NCBI GenBank assembly: GCA_902567635.1
Contig: CACFNV010000001.1
Span: 1 to 64,000 of the forward strand
Source: an uncultured Alphaproteobacteria bacterium
GTDB taxonomy: Bacteria; Pseudomonadota; Alphaproteobacteria; Rhodobacterales; Rhodobacteraceae
Length of the DNA: 64,000 nucleotides
Reading direction: 5' to 3'
Shown here: positions 17,006 to 62,399 of the stretch, one piece after another
Position numbering within the stretch: position 1 is the first letter of the stretch
How the letters are laid out: each line of letters begins with the position of its first letter
Notes under the pieces: model-generated
Seen by the model: only the letters and a program-made list of their open reading frames with translations
Database searches by the model: none
What the model was told of the DNA's origin: nothing
Position numbers and translations under genes: made by a program

Positions 17006-17953
17006 ATGAGTAATCATATTAAGTCTAAGCTATTGATTATTGGGTCAGGGCCAGCAGGATATACTGCAGCGGTATATGCTAGTCGAGCCATGTTGTCCCC
17101 AATTTTAATTCAAGGAATACAACCTGGCGGTCAATTAACAATTACTACGGAGGTAGAAAATTGGCCTGGAGAAGAAGAAATACAGGGGCCTGATTTAATG
17201 ATTAAAATGGAAAATCACGCTAGAAAATTAGGGTGTGAAGTTATTTCTGATCATATAAAAAAGCTAAATCTAAATGACAGGCCTTTTTGTGCAGAAGCTG
17301 ATAGTGGAAAGCTATACTATGCCGATTCTATAATTCTTGCTACGGGAGCTCAAGCAAATTGGTTAGGTTTGCAAAATGAAGAGAAATTCAAAGGATTCGG
17401 CGTGTCTGCTTGCGCCACTTGTGATGGTTTTTTTTATAAGGATAAAGTAGTTGCAGTTGTAGGAGGAGGCAATATGGCTGTTGAGGAAGCCCTTTTCTTA
17501 ACAAAGTTTGCTTCTAGAGTTTTATTGATCCATAGAAGAGACTCATTACGAGCCGAAAAGATTTTGCAACATAGGCTTATGGAAAATAAAAAAATTGAAA
17601 TTCTTTGGAATAAAAAAGTAATAGACGTTATAGGAGAAAATAATCCTCCAGGTGTAACTGGTTTAATTCTTGAAGATACAAATAATAAAAAATTAATAAA
17701 TATAGATGCTTCGGGTGTTTTTATTGCAATAGGTCACTCTCCCGCTTCTGAACTTTTTGTTGAGCAATTGAAAACATATGACGGAGGTTATATAGTAACT
17801 GAGCCTGGTTCTACAAAGACTTCAATAGAAGGGGTTTTCGCAGCAGGAGACCTCGTTGACAATGTTTACAGACAGGCCGTTACCTCTGCAGCAACGGGAT
17901 GTATGGCGGCGCTTGATGCAGAAAAGTATCTAAGTAAAAATAAAGGAGCCTAA
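17006..17953 (+). CDS. trxB: Thioredoxin-disulfide reductase
   Basis: [41 protein letters not shown]. Confidence 0.96.
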
Positions 17954-59158: not shown

Positions 59159-60469
59159 TTAATTTTGCATAATATTTGCTCCTACTTTTCTAAACTCGTT
59201 TATAAAAGTAGGGAAACTAGTATTTATCGATGAATATTCATCTAAAATGATAGGTTTTTCAGAAGCTTGACCTAGACACAAAAAGGACATTGCTACTCTG
59301 TGATCTCCAAAAGTCCTTATTTTGGCACCTCCTGTCACCTTTTTTTGTCCACTTACAATAAGAAAGTCATCACCATATTCTATTTCAATCCCACATTGCT
59401 TTAAACCTTTTGCCATCGATACAATTCGATTGCTCTCTTTGACTGTTAGCTCTTTGATACCTCTCATGATAGTTTTCCCAGTTGCAAATGATGCAATTAT
59501 TGACAGTATTGGGTATTCATCGATCATACTTGGGACCCTGGATATGGGCACTTCAATACCTTTCAATTTGGAAAAACATACAGTTAAATCTGCAACTAAT
59601 TCGCCACTGATGGTTCTGTTGTTAGATAACTCTATTTTTGCCCCCATTTCCTTAACCGTTTCCAAGAAACCACTTCTGGTGTGATTCATACATAAATTAT
59701 AAAGATTTATACTTGAGTCTTTCACGATTAAAGCACTGGCAATAAAAAAAGCTGCTGATGATGGGTCTGTTGGAACAACAATTTTTTTTGGAGTTAGTTC
59801 CTGAAATCCTAGCAATTTGTGAGAAAATCCTTTTGAGGAAAATTTACTATCTACTTTTACTCCAAAATCACTAAGCATATTTTCAGTATGATTACGAGTA
59901 AGACTTTTTTCAATATAGGTTGTTTCTCCTCTGCAATTTAACCCTGCAAGTAAAACAGCTGATTTTATCTGCGCAGAGTCTATTTTTGATTCAAATCTTA
60001 TTGGAAGAGGCTCTTTTGCACCTGTGATGGTAATTGGCAAAAATGAGTTTTCCCTAGCAATAAAGCTTGCGCCCATCCTCTCTAAGGGTTCAATTATTCT
60101 ATCCATGGGTCTTTTACTTAAACTAGGGTCTCCGACAAAAACCGCTTTAATCGGGGTTGTAGAGATTGCACCCATTAATAATCTACACGTAGTACCTGAA
60201 TTACCGCAATCAATTACATTTTCAGGGGAAGAAAAACCTCCCACGCCAAAACCATATACTTCCCAATTATTTTTGTTCTTAATAATCCTTGCCCCAAATT
60301 TTTCCATTGCTTTTATTGTTCTGTAAATATCTTCAGACTCAAGGAGACCTTCGATCACTGTTTTTCCAATAGATAGAGCTCCAAATATGATTGCTCTATG
60401 AGATATAGATTTGTCCCCAGGCAAAATTATGTTTCCCTGAAGTGAATTAGTTTTACTTGATGTTATCAT
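59159..60469 (-). CDS. aroA: 3-phosphoshikimate 1-carboxyvinyltransferase (EPSP synthase)
   Basis: LPGDKSISHRAIIFGAL...DCGNSGTTCRLLMG...GDPSLSKRPMDRI. Confidence 0.96.
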   Translation of the reverse strand: MITSSKTNSLQGNIILPGDKSISHRAIIFGALSIGKTVIEGLLESEDIYRTIKAMEKFGARIIKNKNNWEVYGFGVGGFSSPENVIDCGNSGTTCRLLMGAISTTPIKAVFVGDPSLSKRPMDRIIEPLERMGASFIARENSFLPITITGAKEPLPIRFESKIDSAQIKSAVLLAGLNCRGETTYIEKSLTRNHTENMLSDFGVKVDSKFSSKGFSHKLLGFQELTPKKIVVPTDPSSAAFFIASALIVKDSSINLYNLCMNHTRSGFLETVKEMGAKIELSNNRTISGELVADLTVCFSKLKGIEVPISRVPSMIDEYPILSIIASFATGKTIMRGIKELTVKESNRIVSMAKGLKQCGIEIEYGDDFLIVSGQKKVTGGAKIRTFGDHRVAMSFLCLGQASEKPIILDEYSSINTSFPTFINEFRKVGANIMQN

Positions 60470-60532: not shown

Positions 60533-61218
60533 TTAATTCTTTGAGTATACAAGATAGAAGGGCTTTCTTCCTTCTTGAATTGCTTTCTCTTCATACTTTG
60601 TATTTTTATTTAAAAACCATCGATAATTCTTTTTTATTGGATTGAATTTAAGTCTCCTAAAAATTTTCATCTGTTCAAAAAGCGCAATTATTTGGTTTTT
60701 ATAATCGAGAATATCTGTTGCCATACAAATCTTACCTCCCCTTTTTAAACAAAAACATATATTTTCTATATTCTCCCAGTTAAGCAACCTACGTTCATGA
60801 TGCCTTTTTTTCGGCCATGGATCTGGAAAAAGAATGTAAAATCTTTCTATTGATTCTTTAGGAAGAAAATTGAAAAGTATTCGTATATCTCCGTGAAATA
60901 TTTTAATATTTTTTAATTCACGCTTGTAGGCATTAAAACAAGTTGAAGCCACTCCGTTCTGAAAAACTTCACACCCGACAAAATTTATTTCTCTTCTTTC
61001 AAAGGCCTGATCAATAAGATGCTCACCATTTCCAAATCCGATCTCTACCCAACATTTTTTTTTTTTATAAACGCTGGGCCTGTAATCAAATCAAACGCCA
61101 TTTTGCTGTGAAGCTGATCCATGCCCATAGCTTGGTTTTTTGTCAGCCTTCTTCCCTTTATTCGTCCAAAAGTTCTGGTCTTAGTGAAGTCATAGAATGC
61201 TTTTTCTTTTATATCCAC
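60533..61218 (-). pseudogene. trmB: tRNA (guanine(46)-N7)-methyltransferase, coding frame interrupted at a poly(A)12 tract (frameshift, slippage-dependent, or sequencing error)
   Basis: N-terminal frame from GTG 61218 (VDIKEKAFYDFTKTRTFGRIKGRRLTKNQAM...GPAFIKKKNVG*) stops at TAG 61047-61045; the other frame continues CWVEIGFGNGEHLIDQAFERREINFVGCEVFQNGVASTCFNAYKREL...FPDPWPKKRHHERRL. They join only with +1 or -2 nt in T12 at 61055-61066. Confidence 0.85.
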
Positions 61219-61232
61219 TATATTATTACTCT

Positions 61233-62399
61233 TTAAATCATCGATCTTATTTTATCTACTAAATCGGTTTTCTCCCAAGAGAAGCTTCCATTATCTTCCG
61301 GAGATCTCCCAAAATGCCCATAAGCTGACGTTTTTTCGTAGATTGGTTTCCTAAGGTTCAACCTTTCAATTATACCTTTTGGTGTCAAATCTACTAATTC
61401 GGAGATCAATCTCTCCAGCCTTCTTTCTTCAACTTTAGAAGAATCAAAGGTATCAACATAAATTGAAAGAGGTTCCGCAACACCAATCGCATAGGACAGC
61501 TGTATTAAACATCTTGAAGCCACTTTTGAGGCAACTATGTTTTTTGCAATGTATCTTGCTACATAAGCAGCAGATCTATCCACTTTTGTGGGGTCTTTTC
61601 CTGAAAAAGCTCCTCCACCATGAGGAGCGGCCCCCCCATAGGTATCAACTATGATTTTTCTACCTGTCAACCCTGCATCTCCGTCAGGACCTCCAATAAC
61701 AAATTTTCCAGTTGGATTGATATGCCAGCTCGTATTTTCAGACAACCATTCTAGAGGCACAACTTTTTTTACATATGGTTCAACAATATCTCTTACATCA
61801 GCCGATGAAAGATTAGGGTCGATGTGTTGAGTTGACAAAACAAGTGACTCAATAGAAACGGGCTTACCATTCTTATATCTTAGTGTTAGTTGAGATTTGG
61901 AGTCTGGCCCAAGATTTTTTTCTATCCCTTTGTGCCTAGCTTCAGCTAATTCTTTTAAAATCATATGTGCGTAATGAAGTGGTGCTGGCATTAGCTCAGG
62001 CGTTTCCTCTACCGCATACCCAAACATTATTCCTTGATCACCGGCTCCATCACGATCAACTCCTTGAGATATATCGCTTGACTGTTGATGTATTAAATTA
62101 GAAATCTTTAAGTTTTTCCAATGAAATCCTTCTTGCTCATAGCCAATTTCTTTAACAACTTTTCTTACGAGTTCATCTATTTCGGGCTTTAGAGAATTAA
62201 ACTCTAAGCCTGTTGAAAACCCAACTTCTCCACCTACAACGACAGTATTTGTAGTGGAAAATGTCTCACATGCCACTCTAGCCAACTTGTCTTTTTCTAA
62301 ACAAAAATCCAGTATTGCATCAGAAATTCTATCACAAATTTTATCCGGATGACCCTCCGAAACTGACTCAGAAGTAAAAATAAAATCCTCTCTACCCAA
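61233..62399 (-). CDS. metK: S-adenosylmethionine synthetase
   Basis: [24 protein letters not shown]...[12 protein letters not shown]...[19 protein letters not shown]. Confidence 0.98.

Follow-up and report, generated by a model that had tools for sequence, protein, structure and literature searches.

Interruption of the trmB reading frame at a 12-A tract in an alphaproteobacterial draft genome, and a possible tolerance of the break by slippage

The trmB locus and its poly(A) tract

The window analysed here is the initial 64 kb of a 95-kb contig from a draft genome of 1.5 Mb (G000; 83 contigs, 58% complete). trmB is found on the minus strand at positions 61218–60533, with metK as its upstream neighbor (positions 61233–62399, minus strand, TIGR01034) and aroA as its downstream neighbor (positions 59159–60469, minus strand, TIGR01356). 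The trmB reading frame is lost at a poly(A) tract, positions 61066–61055. As counted on the sequence, the tract consists of exactly 12 A residues on the minus strand (T12 on the plus strand). There is no longer homopolymer in the window; the runner-up has a length of 10.

The upstream half of the gene (positions 61045–61218, minus strand) runs from a GTG start to a TAG stop that follows soon after ATA AAA AAA AAA, and encodes 57 aa ending in FIKKKNVG*. This aa sequence gives no family match of its own in Pfam and TIGRFAM-type profile searches; it can be aligned with the N-termini of TrmB orthologues in the genus. The downstream frame, also on the minus strand, is open from position 61090 to position 60533 (stop to stop, stop codon included) and reads KKKKCWVEIGFGNGEH...YSKN*. 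It carries SAM-binding motif I (CWVEIGFGNGEH) and the remainder of the protein to the C-terminus. Profile searches show matches of this half to PF02390 (E-value = 3e-42, 144 bits) and to TIGR00091 (131.3 bits, above the curated cut-off of 112.65). By these family matches the downstream half is TrmB, tRNA (guanine46-N7)-methyltransferase, with a predicted m7G46 activity.

In the downstream frame, translation could start no earlier than a GTG at position 60952, which is 3′ of motif I; no ATG, GTG or TTG was found upstream of motif I. Thus a catalytically complete TrmB requires a change of frame, and the gene is not one uninterrupted reading frame, since the frame changes at A12. The two frames rejoin when the tract gains one A or loses two, which is equivalent to a −1 ribosomal slip. 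Beyond A12, no further stops or frame breaks were found in the window trmB. The locus displays a single break at a run of at least nine A/T residues with the remainder intact, as in the poly(A) breaks of Blochmannia and Buchnera. A first-pass annotation had described trmB as split at this 12-A tract of the minus strand, with two intact halves, motif I in the downstream frame, and joining only as A13 or A10; sequence, coordinates and frames are as it described. Additional inactivating mutations downstream, which it took as the mark of a plain pseudogene, were not found in the window trmB.

trmB in related genomes

The genus of G000 is represented by 22 draft genomes of 1.0–2.3 Mb, and the other genomes of the family that were searched are 2.9–5.6 Mb in size. 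The gene order lnt-metK-trmB-aroA-cmk-rpsA is identical in all genus members with the locus assembled, and trmB is found wherever contigs run on beyond metK. Loss of trmB in those genus genomes that gave no hit is not supported: either metK is missing too, or contigs end inside metK or trmB. No case of a clean loss was found among genus genomes with the locus assembled.

An uninterrupted trmB is present in 10 species of the genus in which the tract is assembled. Nine of these have A7–A11 at the same site, and one reads GAAAAGAATT there. (The trmB of G006 begins past the tract, so it is outside these ten.) Conservation of the tract in relatives, a point raised by the first-pass annotation, is thus found in part: an A-rich stretch is kept at the same site in the genus, but G000 is long-branched and no near relative in the set carries its tract. 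For a comparison of tract length within the species, no same-species copies were found in viral_contigs, and genome_contigs yielded only distant relatives with ~40% identity.

A second out-of-frame trmB is found in G019, which reads GAA AAA AAA AAA TTT GGC TAG at the tract. Both of its halves are intact and its phase is the same as that of the window trmB. In a tree built on five neighboring genes, G000 forms a long outgroup branch and G019 is nested among species with an intact trmB. This position of G019 indicates that the two breaks are independent, and a shared ancestral break was rejected on the same ground.

The G000 branch has a length of 1.52 on trmB vs 1.26 on lnt, and the remaining trmB tree is also deeper. 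The terminal branch of G019 on the trmB tree is short. The downstream half of the G019 trmB gives a pN/pS of 0.25, vs 0.19–0.20 in two intact species; the value for its own cmk is 0.27. An acceleration after the break is not clear in G000 (compared with lnt) or in G019 (from pN/pS), and a recent break would leave no signal. With no clear relaxation in these comparisons, nothing appears to indicate a long-standing loss of constraint on the broken trmB.

Long A/T tracts and frame breaks in the genus

Approximately 0.6 Mb of genus sequence was classified, with tracts of at least 11 listed genus-wide and tracts of at least 10 listed in G000. Tracts of A9–A10 inside genes are in frame on both sides in 36 of 36 cases, i.e. 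none is broken. Tracts of at least 11 inside genes are in frame in 16 cases; at the other five of 21 the frame is lost and each half of the gene is intact. The difference between the two length classes (5/21 vs 0/36) gives a Fisher p of 0.005, but two of the five breaks were added by inspection, which favors the effect, and the classifier alone gives 3/19 (p = 0.04 by hand). Apparent breaks at tracts of A/T7–A8 were rejected, the seven inspected being gene junctions; among those at length 6, many represent the lnt/metK junction.

The five out-of-frame genes all have their breaks at A11–A12. Two of them are the trmB copies of G000 and G019. G019 also contributes vsr, each half of which matches Pfam Vsr. 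The remaining two are from G017: yqgE, with YqgE family matches in both halves, and an rsmC-like methyltransferase gene, whose downstream half has an MTS domain and whose upstream half gives a weak MTS_N match. The rsmC-like gene is uninterrupted in G012. One extra A, or a −1 ribosomal slip, restores the frame in four of the five. The exception is vsr, encoding a mismatch endonuclease, whose A11 (L200:1504–1514) is in the opposite phase and needs one A fewer. This four-to-one bias in direction is not significant, and an undercalled longer run gives the same direction.

In G000, the frame is kept at the remaining long tracts inside genes, among them about ten A10/T10 tracts, an A13 in coaBC and an A11 in a gene of the alanine dehydrogenase/PNT family. 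The coaBC tract (contig 3, positions 17774–17786; L162:1505–1517) is located between the two catalytic domains of this essential bifunctional gene, and slippage at this point would free the CoaC domain alone. In another gene, of ~495 aa, an in-frame A11 (FQKKKLL) is kept in four species (L281, L301, L316 and L321, at about position 1000). No NCBIfam family is matched by the L301 copy; the gene is a candidate for conserved slippage.

Two of the drafts, G004 and G017, bear on whether such tract lengths are real. They are listed as separate species yet are ~99.7% identical at the loci compared (L325/L326, L343/L344, L243/L229), i.e. ~0.3% divergent, and their contig ends differ. Their alignments are gap-free, and 21 of 21 homopolymers of at least 7 are equal in length, including five A11 and one A13; the two drafts may share one sequencing platform. 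The yqgE and rsmC-like breaks, both at A11, are common to the two. In yqgE (L269:1002–1012, L343, L344), in-frame sister sequences read GAG-A8-TCC, vs A11-TC in G004 and G017. The simplest account would be the loss of one C beside a tract that was lengthened by two G-to-A changes (GAG to AAA). A lost C next to the tract is not a homopolymer miscount. At the rsmC-like break (L270:995–1005, L325, L326), the sister sequences are in frame with A12 or with C plus A11. Judged from these alignments, real frame breaks in the genus are likely.

The first-pass annotation had noted that the trmB tract might be a base-calling artefact. A miscount of the homopolymer in sequencing or assembly would mean that the tract is truly in frame and trmB an ordinary gene. 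In favor of a miscount are the draft status of the genome, the tract being the longest homopolymer in the window, the phase of four of the five genus breaks, which is that expected from one lost A, and the in-frame state of every other trmB tract assembled in the genus apart from that of G019. On the other hand, tracts of similar or greater length in G000, e.g. the coaBC A13, are in frame inside genes, G004 and G017 agree at every homopolymer compared, and the yqgE break by its simplest alignment lies beside the run and not within it. The agreement of G004 and G017 and their shared breaks lower the odds of a simple artefact in the genus; they do not do so for the window contig, whose A12 length is not proven by that agreement. 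For the window trmB a miscount is possible, if doubtful.

Possible slippage or inactivation, and relation to known systems

The trmB break may be real, the poly(A) tract being hypermutable and present at an out-of-frame length that is tolerated since slippage or sliding restores some product. We give this reading a little less than an even chance. The tract would encode a lysine-rich linker directly before the SAM-binding fold. If A12 is the true length in the cell, RNA polymerase may slip on the A-run and add one A in a share of the transcripts, and/or ribosomes may slide −1 on A AAA AAA to give ...KKKKCWVEIG... The joined product is predicted to carry a run of K residues followed by CWVEIGFGNGEHLIDQAFER across the junction. 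The majority product would be the 57-aa fragment, and a fraction of full-length TrmB would remain. No stimulatory RNA structure stands out 3′ of the tract (z = +1.65), so that unprogrammed slippage would be the simplest mechanism.

The support for such a rescue of trmB is circumstantial: the conserved locus, the lack of a clear relaxation of constraint, the restriction of breaks to tracts of at least A11, the independent break at the same site in G019, and the breaks shared by G004 and G017. Transcriptional slippage, one of the possibilities raised in the first-pass annotation, has gained from these observations, and at the trmB tract itself it appears plausible.

A recent loss of trmB would look identical. 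Under this explanation a slippage mutation, fixed or present as the majority allele, has inactivated the gene with no meaningful rescue. A poly(A) run of this length is a hotspot for replication slippage, laboratory E. coli can do without TrmB, and a trmB break is seen twice in the genus. However, neither broken trmB carries other damage, constraint is not clearly relaxed, no clean loss is found where the locus is assembled, and comparable breaks are present in otherwise conserved genes (yqgE, rsmC-like). Recent inactivation is rather unlikely on this evidence. As for the new pseudogene also raised in the first-pass annotation, an old plain pseudogene is disfavored, and the recent form stays among the alternatives. 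Programmed frameshifting or phase variation, with the tract as a maintained regulatory switch, is very improbable: the position of the tract is conserved in the genus, two species share the phase and A AAA AAA is present, but there is no downstream RNA structure, most orthologues are in frame, and the remaining out-of-frame genes have unrelated housekeeping or repair roles, none being a surface gene.

Tolerance of the trmB break by slippage may be part of a wider pattern. It is suggested, tentatively, that RNA polymerase and/or ribosomes slip on tracts of at least A11 with such frequency in the genus that indels there are near-neutral; trmB, yqgE, the rsmC-like gene and vsr would then move into and out of frame yet remain functional, outside insect endosymbionts. 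If true, slippage-buffered frameshifting would reach a lineage whose genomes are larger than those of insect endosymbionts, and pseudogenes called automatically at long A-runs in AT-rich drafts would often be miscalls. The length threshold (no breaks at A9–A10, about one in four from A11 upward) gives a prediction that RNA data can test directly.

No relevant earlier report, for streamlined marine bacteria or of trmB frameshifts, came up in literature searches. In E. coli and Buchnera, insertions prevail among transcriptional slippage events in A/T runs, and their frequency grows exponentially with the length of the run; the study that found this detected no restored frame (PMC5574713). According to a review, 12%–50% of transcripts are corrected in endosymbiont genes with long poly(A) tracts, and sliding on A-runs is mentioned as well (PMC5009743). 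Eight Blochmannia vafer genes have such breaks, and the four that were tested display no unusual acceleration (PMC3017870). Rescue of poly(A)-frameshifted Blochmannia and Buchnera genes by transcriptional slippage is attributed to Tamas 2008 and Wernegreen 2010, as cited in PMC3017870.

The comparison with insect endosymbionts made in the first-pass annotation holds as an analogy. Nothing that marks such a lifestyle was found in this analysis for G000, and the drafts of the genus are small beside the other genomes of the family. The likeness to Blochmannia and Buchnera consists of one indel in a long A-run, intact halves, conserved genes and no clear sign of accelerated evolution; the differences are another lineage, larger genomes at 35% GC, and fewer long tracts. 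There is also a resemblance to tssM of Citrobacter rodentium, where an interrupted gene gives a longer protein via transcriptional frameshifting; there, two length variants are shown experimentally, unlike for trmB (PMC4256274). IS elements likewise use A/T runs as slippage sites, with runs of nine examined (PMC1088944); slippage there serves the expression of a mobile element, whereas in trmB, a housekeeping gene, nothing points to programming. The kind of break is already known from insect symbionts, and its possible extension beyond endosymbionts would be the interesting part.
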